From: Synechococcus sp. SP2 MAG
Lineage (GTDB): Bacteria > Cyanobacteriota > Cyanobacteriia > PCC-6307 > Cyanobiaceae
Length of the DNA: 40,693 bases
Direction: 5' to 3'
Assembly (NCBI GenBank): GCA_030756895.1
Contig: JAVBIX010000047.1
Location: 1-40,693 of the forward strand
A model generated the notes under the pieces. The model was given only the letters and a program-made list of their open reading frames with translations, searched no databases and was not told the origin of the DNA. The translations under genes were made by a program, and so were the position numbers. Position 1 is the first letter of the stretch; every line of letters begins with the position of its first letter. Below, in pieces: positions 2,880 to 40,110 of this stretch.

Positions 2880-3938
2880 TTAAAAGCTAAAAGTCACACC
2901 CGTTCCAACATGATGACTCCATCCCTTACCCCAACCTGTTCCACCCGCGGTGCTGTAGATGGGCTTCCAGTGGCCAAACAACGCCACATTTTCTGAAAGT
3001 GGATATTCCATCCCTAACTCACCACCCCAATCTGTCCTTTGAGAGAGTCCAGAATATGAACCAGGCGAATAGAACCGAGGTCCAGCTGTAAGAGTCACGT
3101 TGAGCTGGTCGACAAAAAAGCCGAATCCAAGCCAAGTATCAGTGTAATTACCCAAGTAGGTGCCCTGAGTATCCCAACCCGTTCGATTTTCAACAGAGAC
3201 AAAAATACCGTCAACAACGGACTCAAGTCCATCACCCAAAGCGAAGTTCACATCACCATCACCAAAGGCGTAGACAACGGTAGCTCCAACTTCATTTTTC
3301 ATGCCCACGTTTTCTTCAGCACTACCAATCTCGAAGTAAGGCATCCACTTCGCTGATATGGACAATCGATCATTGGGCTGATAACGAGCTTGTATAAATC
3401 CCTTTATATCTGTTTGCTTCCACTTAGTTCCGCCTGAATGGTCATGGCCTGCATGGTCGTCATGATCATCGTGATCTTCCCCGGCATGGTCGTCATGATC
3501 TTCTCCGGCGTGGTCGTCGTGATCTTCTCCGGCATGCTCATCGTGATCTTCTCCGGCGTGATCATCATGACCCCCCTCTGAGTGGTCATCAACATGAATG
3601 GCTCCATAGAAATGTTCAGACTCTCCCCAAACAAATGCAGGACCAAAGGAAGCCTCGATCGCAAAGCTCCCTTCATTCTTTAGCCCCCACTCCATAACCA
3701 TTCCGAACATGCCGTCAATGGCGTAATGCTGAGGACGATCTTCCAGATTATTCTCAAAACCGCCGTGGCCCTCAAGAGTAATTACTGGGCTGAGTTTAAA
3801 TTCTCCTGGTTGAAGCTGCTCCCCACCTCCTCCTCCGTGTGATCCATGAGCTCGGACATGTTGAAAAGCAAGATCGCCTCCAAGCAAAAGGCCTGCAACA
3901 GCACCACCTTGAAGAACTCGACGGAAAATTAAATTCAT
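2880..3938 (-). CDS. Outer-membrane-like protein with histidine-rich metal-binding repeat
   Basis: The 352-residue product has a signal peptide (about residues 1-31, ending VRAHG) followed by HGSHGGGGGE. The middle (residues 119-168) is a tandem repeat of the octapeptide HDDHAGED and variants. The rest has alternating aromatic/polar strands and ends GTGVTFSF, a terminal Phe typical of outer-membrane beta-barrels. The His/Asp/Glu segment should bind Zn or a similar metal, perhaps as a surface loop. The gene follows znuA by 40 bases on the same strand, so I infer a role in catching or passing zinc at the outer membrane. Direct homology to a named porin is not visible to me. Confidence 0.7.
   Translation of the reverse strand: MNLIFRRVLQGGAVAGLLLGGDLAFQHVRAHGSHGGGGGEQLQPGEFKLSPVITLEGHGGFENNLEDRPQHYAIDGMFGMVMEWGLKNEGSFAIEASFGPAFVWGESEHFYGAIHVDDHSEGGHDDHAGEDHDEHAGEDHDDHAGEDHDDHAGEDHDDHDDHAGHDHSGGTKWKQTDIKGFIQARYQPNDRLSISAKWMPYFEIGSAEENVGMKNEVGATVVYAFGDGDVNFALGDGLESVVDGIFVSVENRTGWDTQGTYLGNYTDTWLGFGFFVDQLNVTLTAGPRFYSPGSYSGLSQRTDWGGELGMEYPLSENVALFGHWKPIYSTAGGTGWGKGWSHHVGTGVTFSF
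3435..3569 (-). repeat. 24-bp tandem repeat encoding the His-rich octapeptide
   Basis: Several imperfect copies of a 24-bp unit lie head to tail. One plus-strand unit begins ggcatggtcgtcatgatc. Each unit encodes His-Asp-Asp-His-Ala-Gly-Glu-Asp with third-position and Asp/Glu changes. Because the unit is a multiple of three, copy-number change by slippage keeps the reading frame and would lengthen or shorten the metal-binding segment. Confidence 0.8.
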
Positions 3939-3978: not shown

Positions 3979-4872
3979 CTAAATAGCGGCCCAACGCTGC
4001 TGAAGTTGAGATGCTGTTTCCTGATCGCAACGACCGCCTTGAGCATTCACAAAAATGCAAACATTGATCGTCGCTGTTTGAACCAGACTTTTCCCTGGTG
4101 CTTGACCATCACCAAAAAGCACTTGCTTCGCAATAGGAACCCCGCTACTACGACTAATCCTTCGCATCGTTTTAGAAGGAGGTAGCGACTCGGGGAAGAT
4201 GGCCTTACTTCCAGATGCTTTGATCGACTTGCTAATCGCAGACAAACTTGAGGGACGCAATGTTCCACCCGTGGTGTAGTCATCCAGAACGGGAAGTTCA
4301 CGAAAGCCATAACGCTTAGCCAGGAAATCGTAAGTGCGGTGACCAGTCACAACCACACGCTGCTTTTCCGGAACAGTTGCTATTTGCTGACCAATCCAAC
4401 CTCCAAGGGAGACAAGAACGCGATCAGCTTTTGCCCGGCGTTGATCAATTACAGAATCTCCATTGGCATCAAACAGAGACTTCAAGCTCGATGCAACGGT
4501 GTTAGCCATCGCAATCACATTGGCTGGGTCATGCCAGATGTGGGGATCTTTTACAGGGTTGTTGGGGACAGCAATATTTCCAACCTTTACAACGGTGCCA
4601 GGCGTTCTGATCTTGTTCAACGCCGGAGTGAGGTTGTACCCGTTCAAAAGCACAATTTTTGCTTTCGCAAGATTTTGGCGATCAGCTGGGCGCAATGCCA
4701 TGGAGTGCGGATCTGTGCCCGGCTTGATCAAGCAAATCACTTTTGCTTGATTTCCCACCAAAGTGCGCGTGAGATCGCAGAGAATCCCATCGGCAGCAAC
4801 CACGGTGGGAGTTGCCGTATTAGCTGCCGCAAGCAAGACGCTTGCAAGCGGTAAAGAAGCGGGCAGTGGCAC
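3979..4872 (-). CDS. znuA: Zinc ABC transporter, substrate-binding protein
   Basis: A cluster A-I periplasmic metal-binding protein of 297 residues. Ligand-type histidines are visible in GTDPHSM (first), KDPHIWHDP (second) and VVTGHRTYDFLAKRYG (third). A His rather than Glu in the third motif points to zinc over manganese. No acidic His-rich loop is present in the protein itself, but the next gene carries one. The start is a GTG with a short signal peptide (PLASVLLAAANTA); a stop codon shortly upstream excludes a longer form. It follows znuB by 48 bases, and that gap contains a Zur-like box. Confidence 0.9.
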   Translation of the reverse strand: MPLPASLPLASVLLAAANTATPTVVAADGILCDLTRTLVGNQAKVICLIKPGTDPHSMALRPADRQNLAKAKIVLLNGYNLTPALNKIRTPGTVVKVGNIAVPNNPVKDPHIWHDPANVIAMANTVASSLKSLFDANGDSVIDQRRAKADRVLVSLGGWIGQQIATVPEKQRVVVTGHRTYDFLAKRYGFRELPVLDDYTTGGTLRPSSLSAISKSIKASGSKAIFPESLPPSKTMRRISRSSGVPIAKQVLFGDGQAPGKSLVQTATINVCIFVNAQGGRCDQETASQLQQRWAAI

Positions 4873-4892: not shown

Positions 4893-4915
4893 AAAACGAT
4901 AATCATTCTCAAAAG
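4893..4915 (-). promoter_or_regulatory. Zur/Fur-type operator upstream of znuA
   Basis: The minus strand reads TGAGAATGATTATCG (4897-4911), close to the palindromic TGATAATNATTATCA pattern of cyanobacterial Zur and Fur boxes, in an AT-rich setting. It lies 25-39 bases before the znuA GTG in the only sizeable gap of the znuCBA set. Zinc repression of znuA and the downstream His-rich gene is the simplest reading. Fur cannot be excluded from sequence alone. Confidence 0.7.
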
Positions 4916-4920
4916 TTTGG

Positions 4921-5703
4921 CTAGGTACTTCTTCCTGCCAATGGGCAAAGCAACACAACGCATGCCACCCCGATCAAAGGACCTGGAGGGAGATTGAGAG
5001 GCAAGGCCAAAAGGAAACCACCACCACTCAGGGCCAAACCCACAAAAGCTGCCTGAACCATTGCGGCACGAAGGCTTCTCACTCGACGTAGCCCTGGAAG
5101 AACCGGCGCGCACAGCAAGCCAATCACCAAAATCACTCCCACTGCTGCCATTGCACTGACAATCACCGCAGCCGTTACCGCAGACATGGCAAGACGTAGA
5201 CCACGCACAGGAAGTCCCGCCGAAGCGGCCCCCTCTGGATCAACGCCCAAGTAAACAAGCTGCCGGTAGCGAGTGCCAAGAAGCAAAGCCACAGCCAAGC
5301 AAGCAACCAAAACCCGACCCACATCGAGCCAACCCACCGTTAGCAAGTCACCAAACAGAAGGGCCTCAAGGTCCAGGCGCAAATTCAGCAAAGGGATCAG
5401 CAAAACTCCGAGCCCAAGAAAGCCAGCAAGCACGGTATTAATGACAGCTTCCTCATTCAGCTTTGAGTTGCGCTGCAATCGTTCCGCCAATAAGGAACCA
5501 AGAATGCCGCTGATGACACCTCCCACGGCTGGGTCAAAACCAAAGGCAACGGATACCGCCAATCCTGGAAGCACGGCGTGAGAGATGAGGTTGGCCTGAA
5601 GCACCCGGCGCTGGGTGACTAACAGAGTTCCCATGACAGGACACAAAATCCCCACCAAAAGAGCCATCAATAGAGGCAATAACCAAAAAACGATCTCATC
5701 CAC
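4921..5703 (-). CDS. znuB: Zinc ABC transporter, membrane permease
   Basis: The 260-residue protein has about eight hydrophobic segments and belongs to the ABC-3 family of metal permeases. It shows the family motif pattern around LISHAVLPGLAVSVAFG and ILVIGLLCAPVLPGL. The start is a GTG that overlaps the end of znuC by 8 bases, which indicates translational coupling. It forms the inner-membrane channel used by ZnuA and ZnuC. Confidence 0.9.
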   Translation of the reverse strand: MDEIVFWLLPLLMALLVGILCPVMGTLLVTQRRVLQANLISHAVLPGLAVSVAFGFDPAVGGVISGILGSLLAERLQRNSKLNEEAVINTVLAGFLGLGVLLIPLLNLRLDLEALLFGDLLTVGWLDVGRVLVACLAVALLLGTRYRQLVYLGVDPEGAASAGLPVRGLRLAMSAVTAAVIVSAMAAVGVILVIGLLCAPVLPGLRRVRSLRAAMVQAAFVGLALSGGGFLLALPLNLPPGPLIGVACVVLLCPLAGRST

Positions 5704-6412
5704 AGTGATGATTCCCCGGATTTACTAAACCTTTAAGAGATCGCCTCACCTCAGCAGGAGGTCCATCAGCAAGAACACTCCGATCAACCACGATCACGCG
5801 GTCATAGGAATCGAGCGCCTCACCCCAGTCATGGCTGCTCACCAGCAAGGTATGACCGGTATCGGCCAACTGACGCATCAGGAGTAACAACTGATCCCGA
5901 GAAGGAGGATCGATCGCTGCACAGGGTTCATCGAGAAGAAGCATTCGAGAGGGTTGCACGAGAGAACGAGCAAGCAAGGCTCTTTGCTGCTGACCTCCTG
6001 AAAGCTCATCAAGCCGTCTGTTTGCAAGGTCTGCCAGCCCAACGCGTTGCATTGCAGCCTCCCGATCGCAGCACCCGAAGGCTTGACCATTCATGGATCC
6101 AAGATCAACGAGATCACGAACGCTGATTGGGAACGACCAATCAATCCGACTGCGCTGAGGCATTAACACCACCCTTTCACGACAAGTTTCGATCGGATCC
6201 CCATCGCAGTAGACCGAGCCACTTGACGGACGTAACTGCCCCTTAAGCACATGCAGCAGAGTGGATTTACCAGCTCCATTTGCACCAACTAGAGCTGTCA
6301 ATGTCCCTGATTGCAGCGACAGCGAGACGTTTTCCAACACAACGCTATCCCCGTATTGAACATTCACATCCCTTGCTCTGAGAACTGGCTCTTCCAAAAA
6401 TTGAAACGTCAA
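5696..6412 (-). CDS. znuC: Zinc ABC transporter, ATP-binding protein
   Basis: The 238-residue ATPase has Walker A GANGAGKST (about residues 43-51), a Q-loop (LMPQR), signature LSGGQQQR, Walker B MLLLDEP and a switch His (SSHDW). Length and motifs fit a full ZnuC-type subunit of a metal ABC importer. It starts 11 bases after the anchored 462-residue protein and overlaps znuB, so the three are probably cotranscribed. Assignment to zinc comes from its neighbour ZnuA. Confidence 0.9.
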   Translation of the reverse strand: MTFQFLEEPVLRARDVNVQYGDSVVLENVSLSLQSGTLTALVGANGAGKSTLLHVLKGQLRPSSGSVYCDGDPIETCRERVVLMPQRSRIDWSFPISVRDLVDLGSMNGQAFGCCDREAAMQRVGLADLANRRLDELSGGQQQRALLARSLVQPSRMLLLDEPCAAIDPPSRDQLLLLMRQLADTGHTLLVSSHDWGEALDSYDRVIVVDRSVLADGPPAEVRRSLKGLVNPGNHHCG

Positions 6413-6423
6413 GTTGGCTCAAC

Positions 6424-7812
6424 CTATCGACGAACCTTAGAGAATTCATCCAATTCGCCACCTGAAGGCAACCATCGCGCCAACACAACTTGAGGCTTAA
6501 GAAGCTCAAACTCAAGGCTGCTGCCATCTATTAGGGCGGCACGACGTTTTGAACCATCCCCATCTGTCATCACCGTAAGAAGACGATTCGTAGCGGGATC
6601 CACATCAAGCACCGCTCCTGAAGCCAAATACCATCCAGGGAAATGCCTGCGTTTGAGCACTGATCCAGAACTATCTACTAGCAGTAATTCATCTCGAAGA
6701 GTCGGCGATGCATCACGCAGAACAATCCAAATATTTTCTCCCCGGTTATCGCAAGCCGTTGCCATTACCCCCTCCTCCCCTAACCAAACCTGTCGTGGGG
6801 GCTGTCCGGGAATGACTAGCTCAATGGACCGTCGATAATCAGGCCAGTTCCTTAACAACACCGCGCGACCAGAGCCAGAACAAAATGACTTGAGCTCACG
6901 GCTTCCAGGCAGGCTTTGTGGAGCATTCCCGTTTCGATCGGGGTTCATTGATAGAAGATCAAGACCGTCGTAGGAAGGAACAACCATGCCGGTTCCATCA
7001 GGTAAAAGACGAATTGCGCCGGCAACCTCGAGATTGAGATCACGTCGCTTGGCGTTAACCGAACGAATCCAGGTTCGATCACTACCAGCTTCAATACCAC
7101 CAACTTGTACGAGTAATTCCCCGCGCTGATTGCTACTTAAATGGGCAAACAAAAGTGACCCAGATGCCAATGATTGGAGGGCACCTGGGAAAGGTTCAGA
7201 TAATTCTTGAGCTTGATCACTAATTGCCCGTGGGGTGAGCTGGCGAAGCAACACCTCCAGTTTGAAAGGATCGTTATCGGTCACGAAGGCGACGCCTTCT
7301 CCATTGCCAAGCGGCTCAAGCTGAAGAATGCGCTGCTCAATAGACGACAACGGCGACCAACTGCCATCCTTACGACGCAATTTCAACTGCTCTCCCTCCT
7401 CCTCAACCACAACTGCAACGAGATAGGAGCGAGGGTCCCACCAAAGCGTGCGATTAGGCAGCACAAGCCCTCGTTGATCATCACCAGCAAGAACAAGCTT
7501 CTGGGGCGAACGAATGAGGACACCAGGATCGAGAAGCAAGCGGAACCGATCCTGTTGACCAAACCACTGATGGGGCTGATGGGGGACTAGACGACTGTTT
7601 TCAGCCACCGACTTGCGGTTCATCGTCCGACTGAAACGAACGTCAAGTGCTGCAGCGCCAGAACGAATGGATTGAATCGCAACCGATCGCAAACGCGGGG
7701 GGCGACGCAACAAAATCTGCTGCTGGACTAATGCAACCAGGCCCAAGCCCATCAAAGCGACGCTTAAAAGTCGAAGCTTTCCCATCGATGAGCCAAAACC
7801 CTTTGGACTCAT
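6424..7812 (-). CDS. Membrane-anchored beta-rich protein linked to zinc uptake
   Basis: The 462-residue product has one N-terminal membrane helix (about residues 10-31, LRLLSVALMGLGLVALVQQQ) and a large probably periplasmic part. Residues about 40-110 (VRFSRTMNRKSV and following) resemble a bacterial Ig-like Big_5 domain. The rest has repeating short-strand segments, like a beta-propeller. Its ATG overlaps the stop of the TIGR03943 gene (ATGA), and znuC follows 11 bases later. I know no characterised function. Its fixed place between a metal permease pair and znuC suggests an accessory in metal acquisition. Confidence 0.65.
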   Translation of the reverse strand: MSPKGFGSSMGKLRLLSVALMGLGLVALVQQQILLRRPPRLRSVAIQSIRSGAAALDVRFSRTMNRKSVAENSRLVPHQPHQWFGQQDRFRLLLDPGVLIRSPQKLVLAGDDQRGLVLPNRTLWWDPRSYLVAVVVEEEGEQLKLRRKDGSWSPLSSIEQRILQLEPLGNGEGVAFVTDNDPFKLEVLLRQLTPRAISDQAQELSEPFPGALQSLASGSLLFAHLSSNQRGELLVQVGGIEAGSDRTWIRSVNAKRRDLNLEVAGAIRLLPDGTGMVVPSYDGLDLLSMNPDRNGNAPQSLPGSRELKSFCSGSGRAVLLRNWPDYRRSIELVIPGQPPRQVWLGEEGVMATACDNRGENIWIVLRDASPTLRDELLLVDSSGSVLKRRHFPGWYLASGAVLDVDPATNRLLTVMTDGDGSKRRAALIDGSSLEFELLKPQVVLARWLPSGGELDEFSKVRR

Positions 7813-11134: not shown

Positions 11135-12001
11135 TCATCGATTGGGCAAGCTTGAAATGGGCATCGACGATGCGAATCGATGACGCAAGATCCCATGCTT
11201 AGGAGCAAAGAGGAAAGCAATCACAAACAATCCTGTCTGTACAAGAACGATGCAACCAGCTGTTGAACTATCAGTCCAATAACTTGTGTACACCCCAATG
11301 AGGCTGGAAAGAATACTGCTGCCAATCGCCAACCAACTCATTCGATCAAAGCGATCGGTTAAGAGATAAGCGGTAGCCCCAGGAGTGACCAACATGGCCA
11401 CCACCAAAATGATGCCTACTGTTTGTAATCCAGCAACCGCAGCAAGAGAAAGTACGGAGAGAAGGAGGTAGTGAAGAAAACCAGTGTTGATTCCGATCGA
11501 GCGTGCGTGAGTGGGGTCAAAACAAAACAACAACAGATCACGACGAAACAACAAAAGAACAGCCGTTACAAGAGCTGAGATCAACACCGTTTGTTGAATA
11601 TCTGCAATAGAAATACCAAGCACATTGCCAAAAAGAATATGCGTAAGATCAATATTGCTACGCGTCTTCGAGACCAACACCAGTCCTAAAGCGAAGAAAC
11701 CCGTAAAGACAAGGCCAATCACCGTATCTTCTTTGATTCGAGATTTCTGCTTTACGAAGCCAATCGTGGCAACTGATCCCACTCCAAACACAAAGGCTCC
11801 AACCGAAAAAGGCAAGCCAAGGGCATAGGCCAGGATGACCCCTGGCAACACTGAATGAGACACCGCATCACCCATCAGCGCCCAGCCCTTGAGAGTCATG
11901 TAGCAAGAGAGGAGACCGCAGACGCCTCCAACGGTGGCGCTGATTAGCAGAGCCTTCACCATGAAGGCGTGCTGAAGAGGCTCAAGCAAAAATGTGGTCA
12001 A
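11135..12001 (-). CDS. mntB: Manganese-type ABC transporter, membrane permease
   Basis: An ABC-3 family permease of 288 residues with about eight membrane segments. The motif MTLKGWALMGDAVSHSVLPG matches the metal-permease core. It starts with TTG inside a TTGA overlap with the end of the ATPase gene, so translation is probably coupled. Compared with ZnuB in this window it is clearly related but distinct. Mn specificity is inferred from the binding protein of the same operon. Confidence 0.85.
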   Translation of the reverse strand: MTTFLLEPLQHAFMVKALLISATVGGVCGLLSCYMTLKGWALMGDAVSHSVLPGVILAYALGLPFSVGAFVFGVGSVATIGFVKQKSRIKEDTVIGLVFTGFFALGLVLVSKTRSNIDLTHILFGNVLGISIADIQQTVLISALVTAVLLLFRRDLLLFCFDPTHARSIGINTGFLHYLLLSVLSLAAVAGLQTVGIILVVAMLVTPGATAYLLTDRFDRMSWLAIGSSILSSLIGVYTSYWTDSSTAGCIVLVQTGLFVIAFLFAPKHGILRHRFASSMPISSLPNR

Positions 12002-12768
12002 GCGTCCTCCGAGGAACTATTTCCGGTCAATAAATCAGGAGGGAGGCCCCCAAAGGCCAGAGAAAGATTCTCTGGCGTGAACACCTTCGATGTTTCGCCG
12101 TAAGCCAAAACCGTTTTATTGATTAGGACTGTGAGATCGCAGAAGTCTCTGACATGACTGAGATCATGCGTTGAAATTAGAATGGTGCGTCCTTCCTTAC
12201 GCAACTGAAAAAACAGCTCTGCCATCAACTTTTCAGTACGAACGTCCACACCATTGAAAGGCTCGTCCAACAACAAAACCGATGCGCGCTGTGCAATAGC
12301 TCTTGCCAAAAATGTCCGTTTACGTTGACCTCCAGAGAGAGCAGCGATTGGACGATCCCTGAGATCAAGGAGTTCAACGCGCTCAAGGGCATCGCGCACC
12401 GCGACCCTGTCTGACTGCCGTGGAATCCTGAGCACATTCATGGATCCATAGCGACCCATCATCACCACATCCCAGACAGAGACGGGAAAATCGCAATCGA
12501 TCCCTTCACTCTGAGGCACATAAGCAACAGCTTGATCGCGCTGAGCCCGGGCCACACTGCAACCGTTGATTCTGATATGTCCACGCGAGGGGCGAATAAA
12601 ACCAGTCAGGGCCTTGAAAAGAGTCGATTTACCCGACCCATTCATCCCCACCAATCCACAAATGCATCCCGAAGGCAGATGAAGAGAAGCGTCATAGAGG
12701 GCAACTGTGCCGTTGTAGTCAACACAGATCTGATCTGCCTCGATCCGCATCAATTCACTCTGGGTCAT
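11998..12768 (-). CDS. mntA: Manganese-type ABC transporter, ATP-binding protein
   Basis: A 256-residue ATPase with Walker A GMNGSGKST, Q-loop YVPQSE, signature LSGGQRKR, Walker B VLLLDEP and switch His STHD. The ATG overlaps the stop of mntC by 4 bases and its own stop overlaps the mntB start. It powers the metal importer made with the neighbouring permease. It is a paralogue of ZnuC at 5696-6412. Confidence 0.87.
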   Translation of the reverse strand: MTQSELMRIEADQICVDYNGTVALYDASLHLPSGCICGLVGMNGSGKSTLFKALTGFIRPSRGHIRINGCSVARAQRDQAVAYVPQSEGIDCDFPVSVWDVVMMGRYGSMNVLRIPRQSDRVAVRDALERVELLDLRDRPIAALSGGQRKRTFLARAIAQRASVLLLDEPFNGVDVRTEKLMAELFFQLRKEGRTILISTHDLSHVRDFCDLTVLINKTVLAYGETSKVFTPENLSLAFGGLPPDLLTGNSSSEDA

Positions 12769-13745
12769 GAGGACTTTTCGGCGGAAGCAGCCAATCCCTG
12801 CCTAATAAGTTTCACATTGTGGCGTTGAAGGTCGAGCAGAGTTGGTGCAGGACCGTTGCGTTTTGATAAAGAGTCCACATAAAAGCTGCCACCAAAACGT
12901 GCTCCAGAAGCACGAGCCACCTCACGTTGGGCTTTATCACTCACTGTGGTTTCACAAAACACAGCAGGAACCTGGTCTTTCTTCACACGCTCAATCAAAC
13001 GAGCCATGCGCCTTGGACTGATCTGGCTCTCAGCATTGACCGGCCACAAATAGGCCTCATCAAATCCATAGTCTTGAGCTAAATAAGAAAAGGCCCCTTC
13101 ACAGCTGACAAGAACACGCTGCTTTTGGGGAATGACAGCGAGGAGGTTACGTAATTCAGCATCCAATTTTTCCAACTGGAGCTTGTAGCTGTTGCCATTG
13201 TCGCGATACAACTGGGCCCCCTCTGGATCGAGCTGGGAAAAAGCATCCACGAGTCGATCCACATATCCCTGAGCTCTCAAAGGTGACATCCAGGCATGCG
13301 GATTGGGCTTACCGGCGTAAGCATCACCCTCAATGAGCAACGGCTGCATCCCCTCGGTGAGAGTGACAGTGGGCACATCAGCAGCGGATTGAACAAAGCG
13401 GCGAGCCCAAAGCTCCAAACCCAACCCATTTTCAACAATTAAATCCGCATTGGAAGCTTGCTCTAAATCCCGAGGTGATGGCTCATATCCATGAATTTCT
13501 GCACCCGGTTTGGTAATCGATCTAACTTGCAATCGATCACCAGCCACCTGACGAGCCATATCAGCGAGGATCGTGAATGTTGTCAAAACAACTGGGCGGT
13601 TATCGGCACTATTTTCTAAGTTATTAGGCAAGGAACCCTGCCTCGAGCAGGCAACAGCCATTGGCAAAGCGATAACAATCGTCGTCAACTTACGTAAAAG
13701 ATGACTCCTCAATATCTCTGCTGAAAAGATGTTAATGATCATCAA
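12765..13745 (-). CDS. mntC: Manganese-type ABC transporter, substrate-binding lipoprotein
   Basis: This 326-residue cluster A-I protein has an N-terminal signal with lipobox PMAVAC, so it is probably lipid-anchored in the periplasm. The likely metal ligands are His in GAEIHGYEPSP, His in NPHAWMSP, Glu in VSCEGAFSYLAQDYG and Asp in FYVDSLS. Glu in the third position, where ZnuA has His, is the mark of Mn-binding members. Iron is an alternative, since some relatives bind both. It is the first gene of mntCAB and lies 36 bases after DUF2256. Confidence 0.85.
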   Translation of the reverse strand: MMIINIFSAEILRSHLLRKLTTIVIALPMAVACSRQGSLPNNLENSADNRPVVLTTFTILADMARQVAGDRLQVRSITKPGAEIHGYEPSPRDLEQASNADLIVENGLGLELWARRFVQSAADVPTVTLTEGMQPLLIEGDAYAGKPNPHAWMSPLRAQGYVDRLVDAFSQLDPEGAQLYRDNGNSYKLQLEKLDAELRNLLAVIPQKQRVLVSCEGAFSYLAQDYGFDEAYLWPVNAESQISPRRMARLIERVKKDQVPAVFCETTVSDKAQREVARASGARFGGSFYVDSLSKRNGPAPTLLDLQRHNVKLIRQGLAASAEKSS

Positions 13746-39273: not shown

Positions 39274-40110
39274 GTGCCTTGGTGGGACATACCAATCTTG
39301 ATAAGCCTCGGACTCCTAGCGGGAAGTTTGGCTGGATTGTTGGGAATCGGCGGCGGTCTGATTTTCGCACCGGTTCTGCTCTGGCTCAACCTGCCACCTC
39401 ATCAGGCGCTCGCCACTAGCAGCTTTGCGATTGTCCCGACCGCCTTAGCTGGGACAATCGTGCACCTACAAAGTGGGAGCCTGCCAACACGATCCGCTTT
39501 AGCCATTGGCTTAGCAGGCTTCGGATCAGCATTGATATTTGGAGGACTCGGCGGCCTTGTCGCTGGATGGATGCTGTTAGCCATGCAGACAGCGGTGTAT
39601 GTGTTGTTGGCTTTTTCCATCAAAGAGCCACCAAAAGCTGAGAGAAGTGAAGATGAAGTCGAAGATGCAGAAACAGTCGAAGAAGCAGAAATAGAGCAAG
39701 AGAGAGAGGAGCCACTCTGCCCAGAACCAGAAGAAACATCCGCACCCCTGCTGGCTGGAGTGGGCTGCATCGCGGGCTGGACTGCGGGCATGCTTGGCCT
39801 TGGTGGCGGACTCGTGCTCGTACCACTGATGAGCGGGCCTTTTGCGGTCCCTATCCATCAGGCCATTCGCCTAAGCACAGTGGCAGTGCTTTGCTCAGCC
39901 AGTGCAGCGTCACTCCAATTTCTGCACGAAGGACGAGGGATTCCCTGGATGGGGCTCACGCTGGGCTGCGTTGCAGCCTTAGCCGCCCAATGGACAGCGA
40001 GACGCCTCGATCTTTTTGATTCATCTGTGTTGGTGCGATGCCTGCGAGGACTAGCCATTGTCTTAGCCATCGACAGCAGCCGCCGCGCCATTCAACTCAT
40101 ACTGAATTGA
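39274..40110 (+). CDS. TauE/SafE-family sulfite exporter-like permease
   Basis: 278 residues from a GTG. Two homologous halves each carry the family core: GSLAGLLGIGGGLIFAPVLL with HQALATSSFAIVPTALAG, and TAGMLGLGGGLVLVPLMSGP with HQAIRLSTVAVLCSASAAS. Between them is an unusually long acidic loop (about residues 115-155, Glu-rich) facing the cytoplasm. TauE/SafE proteins export sulfite or organosulfonates, or import other anions. The substrate here is unknown. Confidence 0.85.
   Translation: MPWWDIPILISLGLLAGSLAGLLGIGGGLIFAPVLLWLNLPPHQALATSSFAIVPTALAGTIVHLQSGSLPTRSALAIGLAGFGSALIFGGLGGLVAGWMLLAMQTAVYVLLAFSIKEPPKAERSEDEVEDAETVEEAEIEQEREEPLCPEPEETSAPLLAGVGCIAGWTAGMLGLGGGLVLVPLMSGPFAVPIHQAIRLSTVAVLCSASAASLQFLHEGRGIPWMGLTLGCVAALAAQWTARRLDLFDSSVLVRCLRGLAIVLAIDSSRRAIQLILN

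Follow-up and report, generated by a model that had tools for sequence, protein, structure and literature searches.

A predicted outer-membrane barrel with a variable histidine-rich loop, encoded behind znuA in picocyanobacteria, as a candidate zinc entry channel

The znu operon and the predicted barrel protein

The window, i.e. the whole analyzed DNA stretch of 40,693 nucleotides, carries a znu operon on its minus strand. The genes znuC (ATPase, ABC_tran; 5696..6412; PF00005, E 4.6e-30) and znuB (permease, ABC-3; 4921..5703; PF00950, E 1.4e-44) precede znuA (3979..4872; PF01297, E 5.5e-44), whose product is a periplasmic protein that binds zinc and lacks a His-rich loop. znuB and znuA are 48 bp apart, and the Zur-like box CGATAATCATTCTCA (4897..4911), with two mismatches to TGATAATNATTATCA, lies between them. 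Behind the end of znuA, at a distance of 40 bp and on the same strand, an open reading frame (2880..3938) was found, which starts with ATG and encodes a protein of 352 amino acids ending in GVTFSF.

Residues 1-30 (3849..3938, minus strand) were predicted to form a signal peptide, based on the sequence and on a cleavage-like site in the orthologues. With the predicted cleavage between VRA and HGSHGGGG, the first mature residue of the window protein would be a His. The tandem array at 3461..3570 (minus strand) received the top score among the 20 rows of Tandem Repeats Finder for the window, with a period of 24 bp, 4.6 copies, 86% matches and no indels. The in-frame translation reads HDDHAGED, HDEHAGED, HDDHAGED, HDDHAGED and then HDDHDDHA. 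The copies differ at synonymous codons, so that a very recent perfect duplication is not indicated. The signal peptide, the in-frame 24-bp repeat, the FSF end and the position directly after znuA, all named in the first-pass annotation, were thus borne out in the window.

After the barrel gene, an 87-aa protein with a 2TM domain (PF13239) is encoded at 2571-2834; it is also present in the seven loci L035, L036, L044 and L057-L060, which are all of the nearest operon relatives of the window. The proteins encoded at 6424-7812 (462 aa) and 1633-2181 (182 aa) matched no Pfam family; close relatives keep both in the vicinity of the operon, and in many other loci the operon is flanked by homologues of the 462-aa protein. 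Positions 11381-13595 hold another metal ABC cluster, with a permease 28% identical to znuB, an ATPase 38% identical to znuC and a binding protein 23% identical to znuA. An imperfect 18-bp tandem repeat with the unit AGTCGAAGAAGCAGAAAC lies at 39644-39701.

Two AF2 predictions were analyzed, one of the window protein with three relatives (run 1) and one of the relative L032, which is 66% identical, with the same four sequences (run 2). Their confidence was modest, with a mean pLDDT of 58.9 and 55.6, respectively, and lower-ranked models falling to 27.7 and 29.5. Run 1 revealed strands at residues 47-62, 71-85, 91-105, 175-187, 192-205, 212-225, 244-256, 261-276, 279-290, 301-313, 318-329 and 339-351, and the pLDDT was below 50 at residues 107-173. 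Run 2 likewise showed 12 strands, with a low-confidence loop at the same place between strands 3 and 4. On the minus strand, strands 1-3 correspond to positions 3624..3800, the His/Asp-rich loop L2 (residues 106-174, flanked by strands 91-105 and 175-187) to 3417..3623, and strands 4-12 including the terminal Phe to 2883..3416.

The nearest solved folds were outer-membrane barrels, namely an autotransporter domain (8bo2; Z 19.3, 231 aligned residues, rmsd 3.6), KdgM (4pr7; Z 16.7, 170 aligned, rmsd 2.4) and PcoB (7pge; Z 13.4, 190 aligned, rmsd 4.4). The alternation of lipid- and lumen-facing residues, summed over the 12 predicted strands in 92 sequences, was reached by none of 2,000 shuffles; the weakest alternation was found for strand 11. 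Based on the predicted barrels, the fold matches and the strand alternation, a soluble protein was rejected. The window protein is therefore best described as a predicted 12-stranded outer-membrane barrel, in agreement with the first-pass annotation. Since the number of strands is even and both termini are expected to be periplasmic according to barrel rules, loop L2 would be extracellular. This prediction answers the question of barrel topology and loop position raised in the first-pass annotation: the repeat falls in the predicted extracellular loop between strands 3 and 4.

For the analysis of conservation, 92 of 98 loci were used; L105, L157, L064 and L155 are partial, and L135 and L153 were missed by the search pattern. 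H58, H71, H109, E56, D75, D177, D236, D267, R301 and D303 were unchanged in all 92 sequences, followed by H323 and H343 (each kept in 91) and H31 (87). The invariant residues E56, H58, H71 and D75 belong to strands 1-3. According to the alternation, H58, H71, H323 and H343 face the lumen from strands 1, 2, 11 and 12, which are neighbours in a closed barrel. The conserved lumen-facing His, Asp and Glu residues suggest that the interior of the barrel is put to use. A cleavage-like site directly before a His was identified in 83 of the 92 orthologues, at least 63 of which have His-Gly, using a loose, home-made rule (small residues at −3 and −1) instead of SignalP. The remaining nine comprise four misparsed sequences (AEA before HGSH) and five with AGGNH. 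In most members, His-Gly would thus be the mature periplasmic N-terminus.

Range of the family, loop variation and gene replacement

A scan of the genome contigs with the single protein yielded three true relatives. Among 60 near genomes, relatives were detected in 31, i.e. in 29 of 31 genomes of the same genus (the window's own included), in two of six from other genera of the family and in none of 23 outside it. A profile built from 30 members matched 98 of 300 genomes of the family; at least three of these matches are false (G145, G224 and G297, caused by the repeats of ZnuA itself), the hit in G187 is partial at a contig end and that in G126 is ambiguous. The same profile gave 12 matches in 242 genomes of the class, all in this family. 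Within the genomes searched, the barrel is, as judged from sequence profiles, a picocyanobacterial family. It was also found in genomes of 1.8-1.9 Mb that are rated 99% complete (G079, G105 and G110). In total, 99 loci were fetched, including the window; one of them (L151, genome G302) contains a barrel gene decayed by several stops behind a znuA that is intact, has a Zur-like box and encodes a ZnuA without His loop, leaving 98 loci.

In Pfam, PF24653 (Phage_OMP) matched at residues 242-341, which with 27.5 bits is barely above the cut-off of 27, and this was the single place in the genome where PF24653 was found. The domain matched 27 of 30 members at E ≤1, and PHROG 417 matched nine of 30 at E ≤0.1. 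The similarity to this cyanophage barrel domain is limited to the C-terminal third of the window protein: the phage domain has about 120 residues and no assigned function, whereas the window protein is predicted to form a whole barrel with a His loop. No phage protein combining the whole barrel and the His loop was found in two scans of viral contigs or in phage records, and a phage origin of the whole protein was rejected since these searches gave no relative. The C-terminal third had one weak match in phage records, to cyanophage P-TIM40 (E 0.05, under two accessions), and fold matches to cyanophage proteins were weak (E 1.5e-3 and worse). For the C-terminal third, the evidence of kinship with phage comes from the Pfam and PHROG profiles and from these weak fold matches. 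In genus g48 (L100:6067-6861, L123 and L130), the zinc barrel gene is immediately followed by another barrel-like gene; the copy in L100, the only one scanned, contains a Phage_OMP domain (2.7e-13).

The loop, including its short conserved edges, could be measured in 86 of 94 orthologues. The other eight were lost to the right-hand anchor, and the printed sequences show some His in these loops too. The loop length ranged between 29 and 180 residues. Over the 86 orthologues, the composition was 22.5% His, 26.8% Asp and 11.3% Glu, with no Cys and a total of 10 Met. Six loops contain no His, four contain 1-4, 28 contain 5-9, 20 contain 10-19 and 28 at least 20, with a maximum of 52; the window loop has 15. 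The repeat is thus no oddity of one genome, as the loop is rich in His, Asp and Glu across these orthologues. Between close relatives the loop differs as well: it comprises 53 residues in L035 and 35 in L044 compared to 72 in the window, while the barrel cores are 94% and 97% identical, respectively.

The six His-free loops are of a poly-Glu type and form one clade (support 97/93) in a barrel tree of the 84 of 92 rows with a measured loop. Four of these genes are located inside the znu operon and two behind their own Zur-like box. The repeat is therefore an add-on to a conserved barrel, and the poly-Glu allele shows that the surface antenna is optional to it.

Part of the loop variation is due to exchange of the whole gene. 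For L036 and L057, the DNA identity in 150-bp steps is mostly 96-99% in znuC and znuB (with dips to 93 and 86%), 79-95% in most of znuA and 32-72% in the barrel gene, with the minimum at the loop (gaps counted). From about 160 bp behind the barrel gene, the identity is again 92%. The dS values for this pair are 0.07 (znuB), 0.06 (znuC) and 0.46 (znuA), and the value for the barrel gene was not computable (−1, as at saturation). Between the window and L057, dS was 0.33, 0.33 and 0.43 for znuB, znuC and znuA, respectively, and again not computable for the barrel. In a ZnuA tree of 28 rows, the window's group of four and L057-L060 were grouped with a support of 98/99. The barrel cores (30 rows) reject this group, taken from the ZnuA tree, with p-AU 0.004. 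The identity drop, the dS values and the rejected clade indicate at the sequence level that the barrel gene, of the His-loop or the poly-Glu type, was most likely replaced inside a conserved operon. The first-pass annotation had suggested that the repeat copy number could vary between strains. The 86 orthologues confirmed that the loop varies strongly from species to species; gain and loss of repeats does not account for all of it, given the swapping of whole genes.

Link to zinc and comparison with known systems

In 91 of 98 loci, the barrel gene immediately follows znuA in the same orientation (82 identified by script, eight with overlapping long frames and L154, whose znuA is partial because of a contig end). 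It has no adjoining znuA in L061, L063, L093, L100 and L101, and the locus is cut by contig ends in L105 and L157. Upstream of znuA, a Zur-like box was found in 49 of 81 regions with up to two mismatches and in 74 of 81 with up to three (81 of the 82 regions entered this analysis), compared to 0% and 0.8%, respectively, in 1,620 mononucleotide shuffles of these regions. Four of the five stand-alone barrel genes have a box of their own with up to three mismatches, starting 28-42 bp before the assumed start, which is uncertain for L100; for L101, only a box with four mismatches was found. The genome of the window contains three FUR-family genes.

In WH8102, synw0968-0973 were described to be upregulated in a zur mutant (PMC9337993). 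The strongest induction without added zinc was reported for synw0971 (znuA), and the uncharacterised, likely co-transcribed synw0972 was also upregulated (PMC9337993). A layout like that of WH8102, with znuB and znuC divergent from znuA and the barrel gene, was identified in genus g5 (L117, L125, L136 and L148), and by gene order synw0972 matches a member of the family. The link to zinc import proposed in the first-pass annotation is thus supported by the operon, the Zur-like boxes and the response to Zur and zinc reported for the syntenic synw0971-0972.

The family was compared with known systems for metal passage across the outer membrane. ZnuD, the zinc receptor of Neisseria, binds zinc and has His/Asp stretches in the modelled extracellular loop L3 (PMC2895646). 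A His/Asp-rich extracellular loop is common to both proteins, although in the window protein it is predicted only. The model of ZnuD has 22 strands together with a plug and a TonB box (PMC2895646), whereas 12 strands and no plug were predicted for the window protein. According to the authors, uptake by ZnuD is possible without TonB (PMC2895646). The window protein has no match to PF07715 or PF00593 at E ≤1; with 12 instead of 22 strands and without plug and receptor domains, a TonB-dependent receptor of the ZnuD type was rejected. The barrel and plug families of TonB receptors were found in none of 23 genomes of the genus, including the window's own, and in seven of 13 other cyanobacteria.

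The copper channel PcoB has 12 strands (PMC9210255, PMC12509749), as predicted at modest confidence for the window protein. It is further described as having an acidic lumen, a metal-binding disordered region and an operon with periplasmic metal proteins, which is similar to the situation found here. The disordered region of PcoB is rich in His and Met, N-terminal and periplasmic, whereas that of the window protein is rich in His and Asp and lies in a predicted surface loop; PcoB handles copper (PMC9210255), whereas the window barrel is linked to zinc. No match to the PcoB/CopB family was found in Pfam or NCBIfam at E ≤1, and the profile search revealed no related solved chain.

Other candidates were rejected. 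The ZIP transporter family (PF02535) reached 17.2 bits compared to a cut-off of 35.1, with a match at residues 117-251 that begins in the His repeat. The zinc uptake protein ZrgA reached 22 bits compared to the NCBIfam cut-off of 185, and the match (residues 116-168) corresponds to the His repeat. The Som porins of cyanobacteria consist of SLH and OprB domains, neither of which had a Pfam match in the window protein at E ≤1. The Zur-regulated porins OprD (PMC6103462) and MspD of mycobacteria are similar in that they represent porin-type help for zinc across the outer membrane; no relation to the window barrel surfaced, and the accessible parts of the sources describe no His-rich loop for them. 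The His-rich loop of ZnuA, which according to a review raises the zinc level near the binding cleft (PMC8786288), is a module like that of the barrel loop but periplasmic, and it is missing in 80 of 82 ZnuA proteins that adjoin a barrel gene.

In the best reading of these comparisons, the window barrel would work like ZnuD and be built more like PcoB. Zinc receptors with His/Asp surface loops, such as ZnuD, and 12-stranded metal channels of the PcoB type were already known. No paper describing the barrel was found in the literature covered; the gene could already be mentioned by Barnett et al. (2012), who treated the zinc genes of marine cyanobacteria. A review on picocyanobacterial binding proteins discusses ZnuA, and the terms 'outer membrane' and 'porin' are absent from its accessible text (PMC8786288).

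Proposed zinc capture and entry route

ZnuA proteins beside a barrel gene have at most four His in any 20 residues in 80 of 82 cases; the other two (L103 and L115) are His-rich. For comparison, 80 barrel-less genomes (19 of 30 in one set and 63 in another, two of them shared) were searched for ZnuA, and 44 with a clear match (E ≤1e-30) were judged. At least five His within 20 residues were found in 39 of these 44 (17 of 17 and 22 of 27), often in DHDDHDDHSSAKHDDH-like repeats. The enlarged ZnuA proteins of barrel-less genomes (17 loci L177-L193, and L197-L220) have frames of 346-615 residues, and one frame of 873 residues spans a run of N. Most contain His/Asp repeats, and 26 genomes (15 read and 11 flagged) encode an extra domain of the type FEWAG...EHMPFEFEADEHFFKD, located before the DPHxWHD motif. 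Low His content (at most four in 20 residues) without an intact barrel gene was found in G101, G078, G302, G120 and G075. Since ZnuA is His-poor in the barrel-less genomes G101, G078 and G302, the last with the decayed copy, the barrel is not essential. Genus g75 mixes both designs (G193 versus G104 and G136), and in genus g68 the barrel is missing in G097 and present in G191, G217 and G248.

Although the raw counts are strong, a repeated replacement of one design by the other was not supported. In a ZnuA tree of 124 of 126 sequences (excluding G129, which has a run of N, and one sequence with no core motif), the presence of the barrel required four changes and gave four independent pairs. On average, His-richness did not differ in 2.9 pairs, changed the same way in 0.2 and the other way in 0.9, corresponding to a sign test p of 1 with too few pairs (four). 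The pattern of barrel and His-rich ZnuA, to which G101, G078, G302, G120 and G075 as well as L103 and L115 are exceptions, is thus largely one deep split into two ZnuA lineages.

An 843-residue ZnuA frame with DHDDHNET repeats and a FEWAG-type extra domain was also identified in a marine euryarchaeal MAG (L034:5425-7953). It is 32% identical to that of L191 (E 4e-18), and this sequence similarity hints at an exchange of ZnuA between archaea and picocyanobacteria. The ZnuA cluster CK_2462 has been described as almost absent from Prochlorococcus (PMC8786288); the long ZnuA proteins may be filed outside this cluster. A similar idea is known for UreG, which mostly has a His stretch where UreE is missing (PMC2770081). 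Tentatively, picocyanobacteria might capture zinc by either of two interchangeable designs, with a hypervariable His/Asp repeat either on a TonB-independent barrel combined with a plain ZnuA or within an enlarged ZnuA of cells that lack the barrel. A lineage might then set its zinc economy by placing the module at the surface or in the periplasm, by the length of the module and by losing it in the poly-Glu type, and the designs would spread by gene or operon swapping.

For the barrel itself, the link to Zur, the conserved path of ligands and the failure to find a TonB receptor make a channel that works without TonB and is switched on when zinc is low the best-supported picture. With a probability of roughly 0.6, the barrel is an outer-membrane zinc entry channel of the Zur response with a variable zinc-capturing loop. 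Upon zinc starvation, the barrel would be induced as part of the Zur response, and the flexible His/Asp surface loop would capture Zn2+ at very low concentration, which would increase its local level at the mouth of the pore. The conserved lumen-facing His, Asp and Glu residues could hand the ion through to the periplasmic side. There, it would be received by the mature N-terminus (His-Gly...) and by ZnuA, on behalf of ZnuBC. Capture, passage, hand-over and tuning by repeat number are what we infer here. Counting against this reading are the modest AF2 confidence, the His-free loops that nevertheless occur behind Zur-like boxes, the His-poor ZnuA of G101, G078 and G302 and the four-mismatch box of L101; synw0972 is assigned to the family by its gene order.

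Low-complexity His/Asp stretches are generally able to bind several metals and are not specific. The protein could thus sit at the surface under Zur control, with a loop that binds or buffers metals as a store or shield and no transport through the barrel. Entry of zinc by other porins is conceivable, and Som porins were detected in the proteome of WH8102 (PMC3865332). We consider this reading unlikely, since a gene that is induced when zinc is low and repressed by Zur (PMC9337993) is explained more readily by uptake than by protection, and the conserved lumen-facing residues point to a use for the barrel interior.

Equally improbable appears a second explanation, in which the barrel is the zinc-related part and the loop serves chiefly as a variable patch on the surface that is selected by phages or grazers, or results from neutral repeat drift. 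The swapping of the gene as a cassette, with the identity profile and dS of L036 and L057 and the p-AU value given above, as well as the single clade of His-free loops, are in line with it. The richness in His, Asp and Glu was however kept over large changes in length, and Cys is missing in all 86 loops, which would be unexpected under unconstrained drift; swapping of a surface patch and use of metal are moreover compatible. Very unlikely is a primary role for another or a broader range of metals (Cu, Ni, Co or Cd) with a secondary membership in the Zur regulon: the nonspecific His/Asp repeats would allow it, and PcoB, a functional look-alike with the same number of strands, handles copper (PMC9210255), but the position behind znuA, the boxes at the stand-alone genes and the scarcity of Met and lack of Cys in the loops argue against it. 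Met is typical of copper sites.

In the literature covered, no description was found of how zinc passes the outer membrane of the most abundant phototrophs of the ocean. The TonB-independent zinc channel proposed here makes this question testable, as its loop differs by many histidines between relatives. The barrel also provides a marker by which zinc niches might be recognised in genomes, and its reading as a zinc channel gives a likely function for synw0972, which was published as uncharacterised.
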